Shown here one piece after another: positions 3,030 through 42,208 of a DNA stretch of 64,000 bases. How positions within the stretch are numbered: the first letter of the stretch is position 1; each line of letters begins with the position of its first letter. A program made the translations under genes and the position numbers. The notes beneath the pieces are model-generated. The model saw only the letters and a list, made by a program, of their open reading frames with translations, did not search any database and was not told the origin of the DNA. This DNA comes from Porticoccaceae bacterium. GTDB lineage: Bacteria > Pseudomonadota > Gammaproteobacteria > Pseudomonadales > Porticoccaceae. The DNA lies in contig JAQXBF010000025.1 in NCBI GenBank assembly GCA_029252555.1, positions 1 through 64,000 on the forward strand. The letters run 5' to 3'.

Positions 3030-5651
3030 TTAAGCCCCAGCCACTTCCACAATCTGCTCCGCTGCAATCAACTTGCCTTCCTCAGCCGACTTCTGGAACG
3101 ACTCAATCTGGTCAAAGTTCATATAGCTATAAACCTCGGCCGCCATTGAATCAATCTTGCTGGCGTATTCCATATACTCAGCAGGGGTTGGCAGTCGACC
3201 CAAAATACCACCCACAGAGGCAAGCTCGGCACTGGTTAGGTAAACATTGGCACCATCGCCTAAACGGTTGGGGAAGTTACGAGTAGATGTAGACAGTACT
3301 GTTGCACCAGCTAACACACGCGCTTGGTTACCCATGCACAGTGAACAGCCTGGCATCTCTGTACGAGCACCGACTTTACCGTAAATATTGTAGTAGCCTT
3401 CTTCCATTAGCGTATGGGCATCCATACGCGTCGGCGGGCAGATCCAGAATCTGGAATCTACTGAGCCGGCTTCATCGAGCAGTTTACCTGCGGCGCGGAA
3501 GTGACCAATATTGGTCATGCATGAACCGATAAATACTTCATCAACGTTGTCGCCAGCCACTTCTGACAGCAGCTTGGCATCATCTGGGTCATTGGGGCAG
3601 CACACGATTGGCTCTTTGATATCGGCGAGATCAATCTCGATCACGGCGGCATATTCTGCATCGCTATCTGCTGACATCAATGTTGGCTCGGCCAACCATT
3701 CTTCCATCTTGCGTACACGGCGTTCTAATGTGCGTACATCACCATAGCCTTCGGCGATCATCCAGCGCAGCAGTGTTGCGTTGGATTTGAGGTATTCGGC
3801 GACAGAATCTCCACCCAGCTTAATGGTGCAGCCTGCGGCTGAACGTTCTGCTGATGCGTCTGATAATTCAAAGGCTTGCTCTACGGTTAGGCCTTCGATG
3901 CCTTCGCCTTCAATTTCCAAGATGCGGCCACTGAAGAAATTCTTTTTGCCTTTCTTCTCTACGGTTAGCAAACCTTCTTTAATACCGTAGTAAGGAATGG
4001 CATGCACAAGATCACGCAGAGTGATACCGGGCTGCATCTTGCCTTTAAAGCGCACTAGCACTGACTCGGGCATATCCAATGGCATAACACCTGTGGCCGC
4101 TGCGAAAGCGACTAGGCCTGAACCGCCCGGGAATGAAATACCCATAGGGAATCTGGTGTGTGAATCGCCACCGGTACCTACTGTATCGGGGAGCAACATA
4201 CGGTTAAGCCAGCTGTGAATAATGCCGTCACCTGGACGCAGTGAGATACCGCCACGGTTCATAATAAAATCCGGTAGGCTGTGCTGGGTGTCGATGTCAA
4301 CGGGCTTGGGGTAGGCCGCTGTGTGACAGAAAGACTGCATCACCAGATCCGTTGAGAAGCCAAGGCAAGCCAGATCTTTCAACTCGTCTCTAGTCATTGG
4401 GCCAGTGGTATCCTGGGAGCCAACGGTAGTCATCTTGGGCTCACAGTAAGTGCCCGGGCGAATGCCTTCGACACCACAGGCTTTGCCGACCATTTTTTGG
4501 GCTAGCGTGTAGCCTGCATCAGATTCAACTGGTGCGGTTGGCTGGCGGAATACATCTGATGGTGCCAGGCCCATATGCTCGCGAGCACGCTGAGTTAGGC
4601 CGCGGCCTACGATCAGGTTGATGCGGCCATCGGCCTGTACTTCATCGAGAATCACTTCTGATTTGTGTTCAAATTCTGAAACCACTTCGCCAGCTTCGTT
4701 AAGGATTTTGCCGTCGTAGGGGAAGATTTCAATCACATCGCCATTGTTAATGTTGTCCACTGGGGCTTCAAAGACTAACGCGCCAGCATCTTCCATAGTG
4801 TTAAAGAAGATCGGGGCTACCTTGCTGCCGAAGCAGATGCCGCCAGAGCGCTTGTTGGGTACGCCGGGCATATCTTCACCGAAGAACCACAGCACGGAGT
4901 TTGTAGCGGACTTACGAGATGAGCCTGTACCAACCACATCGCCGATAAAGGCAACGGGCAAGCCGCGGGCTTTTAACTCTTCGATCTGGGTCATGGGGCC
5001 GGTGACACCATGCTCTTCTGGGTGCATGCCGTCGCGGGTCATTTTAAACATGGCGCGGGCGTGCAGTGGGATATCCGGACGTGACCATGCATCCTGTGCA
5101 GGAGAGAGGTCATCGGTATTGATTTCGCCGGTGGCTTTAAATACGGCCACTTTAATGCTCTGGGGAACTGCATCGTTGGACGTGAACCATTCTGCATCTG
5201 CCCAAGACTGCATCACCGCTTTTGCATTTGCATTGCCGGCACCAGCTTTTTCAGCCACATCATGGAAGGCATCAAATACTAGCAATGTGCTCTTTAATTC
5301 TTCAGCGGCCTGAGCTGCCAGCTCTGCATCGTCGAGCAGGGCAACCAGAGTTGCTACGTTGTAGCCGCCGTGCATATTGCCGAGCAGGGTTACTGCGGCA
5401 CTGCGATCAATCAGGGGAGATGAAGCTTCACCGTTAACAATCGCGCTCAAAAAGCCAGCTTTAACATAGGCGGCTTCGTCTACACCTGGTGGCACTCGGT
5501 TGGCGATCAGGTCGAGCAGAAACTCTTCTTCACCAGCTGGTGGATTCTTCAGCAGCTCTACCAGGCCTGCGGTCCATTCTGGATCCAGTGGCTTGGCGGG
5601 GATATTCTGTGTGGCGCGTTCTGCGACGTGGGCGCGATAAGCTTCTAGCAC
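3030..5651 (-). CDS. acnB: Bifunctional aconitate hydratase 2 / 2-methylisocitrate dehydratase (AcnB)
   Basis: EAYRAHVAERA...PPAGEEEFLLDLIANRVPPGVDEAAYVKAGFL typical of AcnB; GTG start at 5651 preceded by AAGGAG with 9-nt spacing is preferred to the ORF-track ATG at 5714. Confidence 0.95.
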   Translation of the reverse strand: MLEAYRAHVAERATQNIPAKPLDPEWTAGLVELLKNPPAGEEEFLLDLIANRVPPGVDEAAYVKAGFLSAIVNGEASSPLIDRSAAVTLLGNMHGGYNVATLVALLDDAELAAQAAEELKSTLLVFDAFHDVAEKAGAGNANAKAVMQSWADAEWFTSNDAVPQSIKVAVFKATGEINTDDLSPAQDAWSRPDIPLHARAMFKMTRDGMHPEEHGVTGPMTQIEELKARGLPVAFIGDVVGTGSSRKSATNSVLWFFGEDMPGVPNKRSGGICFGSKVAPIFFNTMEDAGALVFEAPVDNINNGDVIEIFPYDGKILNEAGEVVSEFEHKSEVILDEVQADGRINLIVGRGLTQRAREHMGLAPSDVFRQPTAPVESDAGYTLAQKMVGKACGVEGIRPGTYCEPKMTTVGSQDTTGPMTRDELKDLACLGFSTDLVMQSFCHTAAYPKPVDIDTQHSLPDFIMNRGGISLRPGDGIIHSWLNRMLLPDTVGTGGDSHTRFPMGISFPGGSGLVAFAAATGVMPLDMPESVLVRFKGKMQPGITLRDLVHAIPYYGIKEGLLTVEKKGKKNFFSGRILEIEGEGIEGLTVEQAFELSDASAERSAAGCTIKLGGDSVAEYLKSNATLLRWMIAEGYGDVRTLERRVRKMEEWLAEPTLMSADSDAEYAAVIEIDLADIKEPIVCCPNDPDDAKLLSEVAGDNVDEVFIGSCMTNIGHFRAAGKLLDEAGSVDSRFWICPPTRMDAHTLMEEGYYNIYGKVGARTEMPGCSLCMGNQARVLAGATVLSTSTRNFPNRLGDGANVYLTSAELASVGGILGRLPTPAEYMEYASKIDSMAAEVYSYMNFDQIESFQKSAEEGKLIAAEQIVEVAGA

Positions 5652-8001: not shown

Positions 8002-9825
8002 ATGAACAATAATTCTATATTCTCCATGGCTGTTTCGCTTTTGGCGGCTGCTGTATTTCTCTCTGGCTGCGCGCCTTCTGAAACAGAATCCCAACGGGCC
8101 AATGCGACCTACGACGCACTATTTATGGAGCGTTTAAAAGATAGCCCGGAATATATGGCATACCTTGGCATGCGTGAACGCTATGACGAATGGGACGACT
8201 ATTCTCAGGCGTCTTTTGATGACTCGGTTGCGATGACAGAAAAGCATCTTGCAACCCTTAGTGAGATTGATGCTGAGTCTCTAGATAAATCCGCAGCATT
8301 GAGTTTAACCCTCTATATCCAGCGTTTAGAGACTGGCTTGGCCGATACCAAGTGGCGTTATCACGGTTACCCGGTAAACCAAATGTTTGGAGTGCATTCC
8401 AGTATTCCAAGTTTTTTAATTAATCAGCACCTGATTGCTAATGTGCAAGAGGCAGAGGCTTATATTGCTCGGGTTAATGGGGTGCCCGAGGTGTTGGGGC
8501 ATGTTGTTGAGGATTTAAATATCCGCGCCGATAAGGGCATTATTGCGCCTAAGTTTGTGTTCCCTCACAGTATCCGCGATAGCCAAAATATTATTGCTCA
8601 TATTGGGGTTAATGCTGTTGGTGCAGGTGCTGACGAAGGTGCTGAGGAAAACCCTCTTTTGGCTGACTTTAAAACCAAGCTCAATAAGTTGGAGCTTGAT
8701 GAGGGAGTTAAAGCAGAGCTTATAGGGCAGCTCAATAGTGCACTTGCCGAGCGTTTTGCACCTGCTTATATTAGTTTGATTGCTACTTTGGAGGAGCTGA
8801 AGGAACGCTCTGAAGGTAATTTTGGTGTTTGGAAACTGCCTGATGGCGCGGCATATTATGCTAACTCCTTGAAGCGTATTACCACCACGGATATGACGCC
8901 AGACGAGATTCATCAGCTGGGTCTAGATGAGGTTGCGCGCATCCATGCTGAGATGCGCAGCATTATGCAGCGGGTTAATTTTGAGGGCGACCTGCGAGAT
9001 TTCTTCGGTTTTATGCGCACTGACCCACAGTTTTATCTGGGTGATACCGATGAGGGTCGCGCTGCCTACTTAGCGAAATCTGTGCGAGTTATTGAAGATA
9101 TGGAAGGGCGCTTGGATGAGCTTTTTTATACCAAGCCAGAAGCAGATTTAATTGTGAAGGCGGTTGAGCCATTTCGGGAGAAGTCTGCGGGCCGTGCCTT
9201 CTATCAGCGCGGTGCCGAAGACGGTTCTCGCCCCGGCACCTACTATGCCAACCTTTATCGCATGCAGGATATGCCGACCTATGATTTAGAGGCGCTGGCG
9301 TATCACGAGGGTATTCCTGGCCATCATATGCAGGGTTCTATTTCTCAGGAGCAGCAGTCATTGCCCATGTTCCGCCGTCATGGTGGATACACGGCTTACT
9401 CGGAAGGCTGGGGCCTGTATTCGGAATTTATTCCTAAAGAGATGGGTTTATACAGCAACCCTTACTCTGATTTTGGTCGTTTGAGTATGGAAATTTGGCG
9501 TGCCTGCCGCCTGGTGGTTGATACGGGTTTGCACCATAAACGTTGGACTCGCGAAGAGGCCATCGACTACCTGACTTATAATACCTCAAGCTCTGTGGAA
9601 GCGAATACCAAGGCTATCGAGCGATATATGGTTATGCCTGGTCAGGCGACGGCCTATAAGGTCGGTATGCTGAAAATATTAGAACTCCGTGAGCAAGCTA
9701 GAGCGGATTTGGGGGATAAGTTTGATATCCGTGGTTACCATGAGGTGGTGCTGAGTAATGGCGCAGTGCCGTTAAATGTTCTTGAGACCTTAGTTGATCA
9801 ATGGGTTGCTGAAACTAAGGGCTGA
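8002..9825 (+). CDS. DUF885 family lipoprotein (putative metallopeptidase-like)
   Basis: Signal peptide with lipobox LSGC; HEGIPGHHMQ motif typical of DUF885. ATG at 8002 preferred over GTG at 7993. Confidence 0.85.
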   Translation: MNNNSIFSMAVSLLAAAVFLSGCAPSETESQRANATYDALFMERLKDSPEYMAYLGMRERYDEWDDYSQASFDDSVAMTEKHLATLSEIDAESLDKSAALSLTLYIQRLETGLADTKWRYHGYPVNQMFGVHSSIPSFLINQHLIANVQEAEAYIARVNGVPEVLGHVVEDLNIRADKGIIAPKFVFPHSIRDSQNIIAHIGVNAVGAGADEGAEENPLLADFKTKLNKLELDEGVKAELIGQLNSALAERFAPAYISLIATLEELKERSEGNFGVWKLPDGAAYYANSLKRITTTDMTPDEIHQLGLDEVARIHAEMRSIMQRVNFEGDLRDFFGFMRTDPQFYLGDTDEGRAAYLAKSVRVIEDMEGRLDELFYTKPEADLIVKAVEPFREKSAGRAFYQRGAEDGSRPGTYYANLYRMQDMPTYDLEALAYHEGIPGHHMQGSISQEQQSLPMFRRHGGYTAYSEGWGLYSEFIPKEMGLYSNPYSDFGRLSMEIWRACRLVVDTGLHHKRWTREEAIDYLTYNTSSSVEANTKAIERYMVMPGQATAYKVGMLKILELREQARADLGDKFDIRGYHEVVLSNGAVPLNVLETLVDQWVAETKG

Positions 9826-39480: not shown

Positions 39481-40653
39481 ATGTCACTAGATTTTGATAG
39501 CGCTCGTCTGCCTAATAAAAATCTCACCCCAGAGCACCATGAATGGCGGGCACAGCTGCGACGGTTTATCGATCGCGAAATTATGCCCTATGCGGAAGAC
39601 TGGGATGAAAATGGCTCGATACCCGATGAACTGTGGACCAAATCAGCAGAGGTTGGCCTGCTGGGCATGGGTTACCCAGAGGAGTTTGGCGGAGTCACCG
39701 AAGGCATAGATATGTGGCACAGTATTATTGTCAATGAAGAGCTGGCCCGCGTTGCCGTGGGCGGTGTAGCTGCAACTCTGTTGGTGCATGGTATTGGCCT
39801 GCCACCCGTGATTAATTTTGGCAGCGAGGAGATTAAACAGAGGGTGGCGCCGCCGGTACTGGCAGGCACCAAACGTATCTCACTGGCCATCACCGAACCC
39901 GGCGGTGGCTCCGATGTAGCCCAGCTGCAAACCACAGCTCGCCTGGATGGCGATCACTATATCGTCAATGGTTCAAAAACCTATATTACTGGTGGTATGA
40001 ATGCTAACTGGTTTACCACTGCTGTGCGCACCGGTGCGGAGGGTTCGGCGGGTGTATCTACCTTGCTGATTCCTTCCGATATAGAGGGCGTATCGCGCAC
40101 AGCATTGGATAAAAAACAGGGCTGGTGGTGCTCAGATACAGCCACTATCTACTTCGATAAAGTGCGCGTGCCTGTGGGTAACCTGCTGGGTCAGGAGAAT
40201 AAGGGTTTTGCGGTTATTATGAATAACTTCAATTCCGAGCGCCTGGCTATGGCTGCAGCTATGGAGGCGCTTTCAAGGGTCTGTCTGGAAGATGCCGTGG
40301 CTTGGGCTCGAGAGCGCAAGACCTTTGGTCAGCGCCTTGCCGACCACCAGGTAATTCGCCATAAAATTGCCGAGATGAAACAGCGTATTAACGCCACTCA
40401 GGCCTATTTGCTGATGACCTGTGAGCAGGTGCAGCAGGGCACTGAGAATGCTGGCGATATAGCGCTGTTAAAGGTGCAGTCCAGTCAAACTATGGAGTTC
40501 TGTGCGCGTGAGGCAATGCAAATTCTTGGTGGTATCGGCTATATGCGTGGCAGCCGCGTTGAGCGAATCTACCGTGAGGTGCGTGTTAATGCGATTGGTG
40601 GTGGCTCTGAAGAAATTATGCGTGATCTGGCCGCTCGCCAGTTTGGGCTCTGA
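39481..40653 (+). CDS. Acyl-CoA dehydrogenase
   Basis: LAITEPGGGSDVAQLQTTARL, ILGGIGYMRGSRVERIYREVRVNAIGGGSEEIMRD. Confidence 0.93.
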   Translation: MSLDFDSARLPNKNLTPEHHEWRAQLRRFIDREIMPYAEDWDENGSIPDELWTKSAEVGLLGMGYPEEFGGVTEGIDMWHSIIVNEELARVAVGGVAATLLVHGIGLPPVINFGSEEIKQRVAPPVLAGTKRISLAITEPGGGSDVAQLQTTARLDGDHYIVNGSKTYITGGMNANWFTTAVRTGAEGSAGVSTLLIPSDIEGVSRTALDKKQGWWCSDTATIYFDKVRVPVGNLLGQENKGFAVIMNNFNSERLAMAAAMEALSRVCLEDAVAWARERKTFGQRLADHQVIRHKIAEMKQRINATQAYLLMTCEQVQQGTENAGDIALLKVQSSQTMEFCAREAMQILGGIGYMRGSRVERIYREVRVNAIGGGSEEIMRDLAARQFGL

Positions 40654-40655
40654 CG

Positions 40656-41183
40656 TCAATAGGATGGCTTAGGCTCGGCAATACATTGTTCGAAACGGTT
40701 TTTCTGGGCTTCTAGATTGAGTTTAAAGGCGAGTTTTGAGACTTCAATAGCTTCCACTGAGGGCTTTGATTTCACTCGAGAGTTTTCCATGAGCCAGGAG
40801 CCAACTTCAAAAAAGTGCCACAGGGGCACGCTGCCTGAGATACTGGGTTGAGGAAACGGCGTTTTTGAATCTGTGGCCAGTTTGCGGATATTCTGACGTG
40901 AGCAGCCTACCAGGTCTGCAATATCTGATAACCCCACCATATCTGGCTTTACTTCGAGTAGCTGTGAACCCTCAATGGCCATTGTTACCTGAGCGATTGC
41001 GCTTTCGATGGCCTGTTCAGCTGATTCGGCCAGCCGGTTGAAGTTAAGTGCAATTGATCCTTTAGCGCCAATACCGACCAGTGCATCATCGCAGCCCGCC
41101 TCAAATAACAGGTCAGTGCATTGTCCTATGCTTTTGTCTGACGCTAATATTGAGAAGGTCAGGGTGTAATCATAGGTTTTCAT
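40656..41183 (-). CDS. Putative HTH DNA-binding protein (candidate antitoxin partner)
   Basis: 175 aa; LSDIADLVGCSRQNIRKLATDSKTPFPQPSISGSVPLWHFFEVGSWL resembles MerR/AlpA-type HTH; ATGA overlap with upstream gene. Confidence 0.6.
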   Translation of the reverse strand: MKTYDYTLTFSILASDKSIGQCTDLLFEAGCDDALVGIGAKGSIALNFNRLAESAEQAIESAIAQVTMAIEGSQLLEVKPDMVGLSDIADLVGCSRQNIRKLATDSKTPFPQPSISGSVPLWHFFEVGSWLMENSRVKSKPSVEAIEVSKLAFKLNLEAQKNRFEQCIAEPKPSY

Positions 41184-41437
41184 TTTTTCACCTCGTATAA
41201 CTTAGTTATTGGGTAGATGCACCCATCAACTGATCTCTTTAACTGTTTCGCAAAGTTGCCAGGGTTTCGAGGAGTACTCCAAACAGAAATCTGCCAAAAC
41301 ATACCACAACTGCACTCAGGTTTATTCTTGGGGTAACGTATGATCGCCCATGCATGGCCACTTGCAACCTTTATCGTCCAGCCTTTTTCAAGTGCATGCT
41401 GGACTGCCTTATTTACGTCCTTGTTAGGGTGCTTCAT
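41180..41437 (-). CDS. Small HicA-like protein (candidate toxin)
   Basis: 85 aa; NKAVQHALEKGWTIKVASGHAWAIIRYP...ISVWSTPRNPGNFAKQLKRSV: helix-strand-His-strand pattern reminiscent of HicA. Confidence 0.5.
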   Translation of the reverse strand: MKHPNKDVNKAVQHALEKGWTIKVASGHAWAIIRYPKNKPECSCGMFWQISVWSTPRNPGNFAKQLKRSVDGCIYPITKLYEVKK

Positions 41438-41470
41438 TCCTTAAAGCCTCAATGTAAGTAATCCTAGTGA

Positions 41471-41508
41471 AGTATTTATTGATTGTCAAATGACAATCAA
41501 TAAATACT
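41471..41508. promoter_or_regulatory. Perfect inverted repeat AGTATTTATTGATTGTCA-AA-TGACAATCAATAAATACT
   Basis: 18-bp arms, 2-nt centre, 33 bp upstream of the HicA-like start. Confidence 0.7.
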
Positions 41509-41695: not shown

Positions 41696-41869
41696 GGATG
41701 CTGTTTGGGGATGGCCTTGAGATCGGTCCCATGGCCATAGGTATTTTCAGCGTTCGCACAACTCCCTTTCTCTATGAGAAAAGCTCAGACAAGTGTTCTC
41801 TTTATCTGAAAATACCTATGCCCATAAGCGGGCCCTGATCGATCTCAAGGCCATCTCCAAACAGCATCC
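41696..41869. repeat. Long imperfect inverted repeat (~55 and ~64 nt arms, ~55 nt loop)
   Basis: GGATGCTGTTTGGGGATGGCCTTGAGATCGGTC...CCATAGGTATTTTCAG versus reverse complement of CTGAAAATACCTATG...GATCGATCTCAAGGCCATCTCCAAACAGCATCC. Confidence 0.8.
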
Positions 41870-41908: not shown

Positions 41909-42208
41909 CTATGACAACAAGGGCCCCAGTTTCATGGCAATGCCCATATCACCTTGAACCTTTAGCTTGCCGCTCATAAATGCCATGGTGCCATCGAGCT
42001 TGCCATCAGCCATGTCCATAAAATCAGCTAAGCTGATACCTATGGTGCAGGCTGCTTCTGCATCATCATTGCCAATCACATTGGGCACCTGCGAGGCGTC
42101 TAATACCAGAATGCCATCATCACCAAAATCAAACTTTAAGATTGAACCCAGCCCACAATCTTCCCCAACCTTTTCTTTTAAACCTGCAGTAACCGCTTCC
42201 AAAGACAT
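41909..42208 (-). CDS. SCP2 sterol-binding domain protein
   Basis: ADFMDMADGKLDGTMAFMSGKLKVQGDMGIAMKL. Confidence 0.9.
   Translation of the reverse strand: MSLEAVTAGLKEKVGEDCGLGSILKFDFGDDGILVLDASQVPNVIGNDDAEAACTIGISLADFMDMADGKLDGTMAFMSGKLKVQGDMGIAMKLGPLLS

Follow-up and report, generated by a model that had tools for sequence, protein, structure and literature searches.

Introduction

HicAB toxin-antitoxin (TA) systems, and among them Gerdes class 3, in which HicB carries a C-terminal helix-turn-helix (HTH), are the described systems closest to the gene pair analysed here (PMC10865869). In class 3 the toxin gene comes first and the gene of the DNA-binding antitoxin second, with a palindromic operator in the promoter; HicA has the fold order α-β-β-β-α (PMC10865869), and the N-terminal domain of HicB is a partial RNase H fold of order β-β-β-α-β. 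A further relative is the Shi/ParA/AlpA operon of the mobile element ICEclc, which starts with an alpA-type gene and encodes Shi, a small non-RNase growth arrest protein diverged from HicA (PMC6812849). Although derived from HicA, Shi is non-toxic by itself and requires ParA (PMC6812849). Homologues of the pair are also present in Escherichia phage-plasmid Cyrano (pLF82), in which CYRAN_51 and CYRAN_50 are already annotated as HicA toxin and putative HicB, respectively.

Here we examine two genes, A and B, within a 64,000-nucleotide stretch of contig JAQXBF010000025.1 of a Porticoccaceae bacterium (the window). They share with hicAB the order of toxin gene and DNA-binding antitoxin gene, a predicted α-β-β-β-α toxin and a predicted palindromic operator in the promoter. 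They resemble the ICEclc operon in a small, probably HicA-diverged protein, a gene for a putatively AlpA-like regulator and carriage on mobile elements, the likeness of Shi to A being one of description only. In our view the pair is probably a type II TA module, made up of a HicA-like toxin and an antitoxin-autorepressor that is not HicB.

Gene organisation and database matches

The pair had been reported in an earlier note as two co-directional genes with an ATGA overlap, alone between an acyl-CoA dehydrogenase gene and an SCP2 gene, and both open reading frames and both flanking genes are located accordingly:

41180-41437, minus strand: gene A (85 aa), which matches PDC-M06A and phrog_5923 and encodes a putative toxin of HicA-like type
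40656-41183, minus strand: gene B (175 aa), which matches PDC-M06B and phrog_2620 and encodes a putative antitoxin-autorepressor
41180-41183, minus strand: ATGA shared by the stop codon of A and the start codon of B, translational coupling probable
39481-40653, plus strand: acyl-CoA dehydrogenase gene, flanking the pair
41909-42208, minus strand: SCP2 gene, flanking the pair

The same −4 overlap was found again at several other loci. The genome that carries the pair is 2.3 Mb in size and its genus-mates include a SAR92-clade bacterium; A of a Porticoccaceae MAG (L002) is 99% identical to A of the window. Comparison of two genus-mates gave a dN/dS of 0.10 for A and likewise for B, and both are therefore proteins under purifying selection rather than chance open reading frames, to which the strong profile matches given below also testify. 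Between A and the SCP2 gene (41696-41869) there is also an imperfect palindrome of ∼175 bp with a DNA fold z-score of −10.5, of which a diverged second copy is found at G000:C31:11947-12068; it is probably a dispersed repeat element outside the module.

In PADLOC-DB 2.0, A and B match PDC-M06A (E 2.7e-29) and PDC-M06B (E 1.5e-55) as adjacent genes and over nearly their whole length, PDC-M06 being a PADLOC phage defence candidate (multi-gene 06) with the gene order of the window pair. The PHROG matches are 5923 for A and 2620 for B, the latter labelled ‘excisionase and transcriptional regulator’, and B of SSU5 is annotated as AlpA-like; Pfam and NCBIfam gave nothing useful for A, B or their families. 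The earlier view that the pair belongs to no named family does not survive these matches, which cover both genes, and ‘undescribed’ was too strong because a catalogue name exists and the Cyrano pair was already annotated, though a described mechanism was not found. In the literature searched we found neither the name PDC-M06 nor a description of the mechanism, operator or fold, and the fold pairing, the conserved operator and the natural loss of just the toxin gene appear to be new to the literature. The label ‘defence’ is a judgement of PADLOC and is not drawn from the present data.

Protein A and its likeness to HicA

An AF2 model of A (pLDDT 75.6) predicts the order α(6-17)-β(21-24)-β(29-36)-β(47-53)-α(59-71), which is, at moderate confidence, the dsRBD topology of HicA that had been proposed for the short protein. 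The motif order is also alike by eye, recruited HicA sequences reading GW...GSH...TVPHP...I.KQAG and A reading GW...(G)SH...STPKNP..HA..IRR.VD.C, with a longer β2-β3 loop in A. The SGHAW motif picked out earlier is present, and among 24 diverse homologues the invariant residues include H3, A15, G19, W20, H28, P56, A63 and C73; thus GW (19-20) and His28, which occupies the position of the histidine in the HicA GSH motif, are conserved in 24/24 members.

The PADLOC HicA-like model matches A of the window with an E value of 0.0058 and its best homologue with 2.2e-4, and 5/24 members of the A family in all, while among the first 25 neighbours in a BFVD fold search all three with a named function are HicA-like phage proteins (prob 0.91, 0.91 and 0.51; E > 0.01). 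Comparison of the predicted structure with HicA upholds the topology and not a significant match in the PDB, in which the fold search gave E > 0.4 throughout and ranked Streptococcus pneumoniae HicA 32nd (E 3.5); a PDB sequence search with A returned chance matches only. The Pfam model HicA_toxin (PF07927) recognises none of the 24 homologues and nothing anywhere in the source genome, and even with the E value limit set at 10 nothing in Pfam matched A. Since alignment of A with 27 HicA sequences by hhalign placed GW..H in the expected register but with a probability of only 2.3%, homology of A to HicA is, as judged from sequence, likely but short of proof.

In many family members the longer β2-β3 loop of A has an additional insert rich in cysteine, and four clustered cysteines are retained by most relatives. 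Window A lacks two of the four, residue 35 being Y and the aligned fourth position W, so that a metal-binding loop, if there is one, is dispensable in this lineage. Cyrano A is likewise without the four-cysteine pattern.

Protein B is not a HicB

The model of B is better than that of A (pLDDT 88.7) and predicts four elements:

residues 2-79: N-domain of order β-α-β-β-α-β, with ferredoxin-like fold neighbours
residues ∼85-103: AlpA-like HTH
residues 121-123: wing
residues 143-169: long C-terminal helix

The order β-β-β-α-β of the HicB partial RNase H fold is absent from this model, and B fails as a HicB for that reason, in agreement with the earlier failure to recognise a HicB-like domain in it. 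A C-terminal HTH had been proposed as well; the HTH exists, although it is not at the extreme C-terminus, being followed by the wing and two helices. Weak matches to AlpA (8c3t, E 0.05) and to an excisionase were obtained in a PDB sequence search, nothing significant in a PDB fold search, and the Phage_AlpA model weakly matches 5/21 B members (best E 0.013).

Going by the descriptions in PMC10865869, the A/B architecture fits none of the 14 classes. Membership of the pair in HicAB proper is not supported, the HicB domain order and recognition by PF07927 both being absent although A has the HicA topology. The predicted fold of B equally gives no support to the HicB label of Cyrano CYRAN_50, which corrects an annotation carried by common phage-plasmids of E. 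coli and Enterobacter.

Predicted operator and promoter

Just upstream of A lie a palindrome and a promoter that the earlier note had overlooked:

41471-41508, no strand: predicted operator, a palindrome of 38 bp in which perfect arms of 18 nt enclose a 2-nt centre
41461-41489, minus strand: predicted sigma-70-like promoter, −35 TTGACA, 17-nt spacer, −10 TAGGAT

The promoter comes from a consensus scan only, and the number of such sites in the region does not exceed that in shuffles. Its −35 falls within the 38-bp palindrome, a layout shared by loci L012 and L013, and the core of the palindrome, TTGTCA-TT-TGACAA, is conserved within the family. Because generic inverted repeats upstream of A were only mildly enriched relative to random stretches, we scanned for the specific TTG(T/A)CA operator, allowing ≤1 mismatch within 160 bp before A. 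This 14-bp operator overlaps the −35 box at 41 of 48 distinct loci, which take in several close phage-plasmid relatives, compared with 1 match in the 229,891 bases that make up the remainder of the same loci. It occurs as TTGTCA-N2-TGACAA (n=22) or as TTGACA-N2-TGTCAA (n=19). Because the −35 itself makes up one half of the motif, the conservation of that half is unsurprising; a promoter does not call for the mirror half. Between the two forms a single base is changed in each half-site, and symmetrically, which would be the trace expected of a dimeric repressor co-evolving with its site.

Distribution and one-sided loss of A

The pair recurs across Pseudomonadota, on cyanobacterial and Roseobacter-type plasmids and on SSU5-type phage-plasmids, and is found in >200 enterobacterial IncFIB-type plasmid records. 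Strong A matches (E < 1e-10) occur in 23 of 399 genomes sampled phylum-wide and are adjoined by B in 23/23, and full-length B stands beside intact A in 48/48 loci inspected singly; there is some redundancy among these loci, and the greater length of B makes it the easier of the two genes to detect. The co-occurrence of the two genes across genomes, one of the points by which the earlier note would have judged its proposal, is thereby borne out. The Cyrano-type pair is present in 110 of 5,426 complete E. coli genomes, exclusively on plasmids, with no chromosomal site. It is homologous to the window pair, with the same gene order and operator (type 2), and is expressed in the lysogen; it differs in having a gap of ∼60 nt between A and B instead of the overlap.

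Seven lineages, among 56 loci with intact B, have lost or broken A, whereas intact A with broken B was seen at 0/48 loci (Fisher p 0.014, the loci being not fully independent):

L008 and L047: A with nonsense codons
L022: A with an internal deletion
L054: A with a frameshift
L087 and L214 (E. coli plasmids, one lineage): middle of A replaced by a short hairpin
L215: A absent
L216: A C-terminally truncated

The operator is retained despite the loss of A in L022, L047, L087 and L214. In plasmid pEC16-2 (L214) the loss is recent, because the remainder is 99.8% identical to the intact version. One-sided loss of A is a prediction of a toxin and antitoxin pair, and these natural A-minus/B-plus variants are ready-made genetic controls.

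The hairpin in pEC16-2 and pYLMB53a (L087) is the same 59-nt element with its loop in opposite orientations (TTATGTC and GACATAA), as if it can invert or had arisen by template switching. Two viral contigs (L121:2995-3267 and L123:3001-3243) encode a lone B N-domain, without the HTH and without A upstream, which is possibly a decoy antitoxin against the module.

Proposed mechanism and alternatives

Two small, closely linked and co-occurring genes, of which the antitoxin gene can occur alone and the toxin gene does not (7 lineages against 0/48), are features of type II TA modules. Together with the conserved palindrome over the −35 and the predicted DNA-binding domain of B, they agree with the auto-regulated TA-like pair originally suggested, and that A and B work like a TA module is well supported. 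The steps of the proposed mechanism that we infer are the toxicity of A and its activity as an RNase, its direct binding by B, repression by B, and phage defence. A, a small HicA-like (dsRBD-type) protein and probably an RNase, would halt growth by means of its invariant His28; B would bind A directly through the ferredoxin-like N-domain, in place of a HicB domain, and as a dimer would bind the palindrome over the −35 through its AlpA-type winged HTH, repressing its own operon. If the level of B fell, through loss of the cassette or a phage upsetting the cell, A would be freed and growth would stop, which could keep phage-plasmids and islands in place, block competing phages, or both. The chief reservation comes from Shi of ICEclc, whose example means that a protein derived from HicA may be harmless by itself (PMC6812849). 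A catalogue entry, PDC-M06, would thus gain a specific testable mechanism, with a toxin gene, an antitoxin make-up and a DNA site, and, if true, HicA-like toxins can be restrained by a structurally different antitoxin. We rate as evenly balanced the broader reading that these are widespread HicA-like toxins with an unrelated ferredoxin-like antitoxin domain on an AlpA-type regulator, forming a fifteenth HicA context with non-HicB neutralisation and a single family-wide operator whose half-sites have changed together.

The PHROG 2620 label, the AlpA-like HTH and the constant placement of the pair among the replication genes of SSU5-type phage-plasmids would all suit a B that is mainly an AlpA/excisionase-type regulator of mobile elements, with A as its small non-toxic partner, either co-factor or anti-repressor, in the tuning of excision or lysogeny. 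This seems unlikely to us, given that most of the chromosomal pairs surveyed stand alone, the neighbours at these 20 loci being mostly housekeeping genes with no integrase among the listed neighbour families, and that recurrent loss of A only, with operator and B kept, is unexpected for a harmless co-factor. The Cyrano copies are, moreover, steadily expressed in a lysogen grown in LB: RNA-seq of E. coli LF82 places CYRAN_51 (A) 30-fold and CYRAN_50 (B) 14-fold over the prophage background (PMC9928086), and the operon therefore works in the lysogenic state. We give a low probability to a HicA-derived A that is no longer an RNase and would arrest cells through contact with a protein, in the way that Shi acts with ParA in ICEclc. 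Shi itself is the precedent (PMC6812849), and the failure of A in HicA profile tests and the cysteine-rich insert of many members are in keeping with it, but His28 is invariant at the place of the HicA histidine and the partner of A is B, not ParA. A few of the 20 chromosomal loci are near AbiE, AbiL, PDC-M07 or HEC-01 genes; since most lie among housekeeping genes, a defence-island context is not counted as evidence for the TA module.

Genomic sites of the pair

In most genus-mates with an orthologous dehydrogenase gene the SCP2 gene is directly next and the pair absent, the gap at this empty site being ∼65 to 135 bp in L133-L135; the pair is beside the SCP2 gene in four genomes of the genus. 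No tRNA insertion site lies nearby. The empty site, with the occurrence of the pair on plasmids and phage-plasmids, shows it to be mobile and counts in favour of the TA reading. One genus-mate (G019) has a decayed pair at another site (L005 ∼5001-5630), in which the front of A is lost and B is broken, and its own dehydrogenase/SCP2 site is empty. In another genome (G154) direct repeats of 171 bp, 98.8% identical to each other, lie on either side of the pair (L212:8293-8463 and 9410-9580). An integron attC as carrier of this copy was considered and dropped, the flanking repeats being unlike attC by eye. G154 also has a second copy of B, with A deleted, at 10 kb from the pair; together with the repeats it is a sign that the cassette was moved or duplicated.
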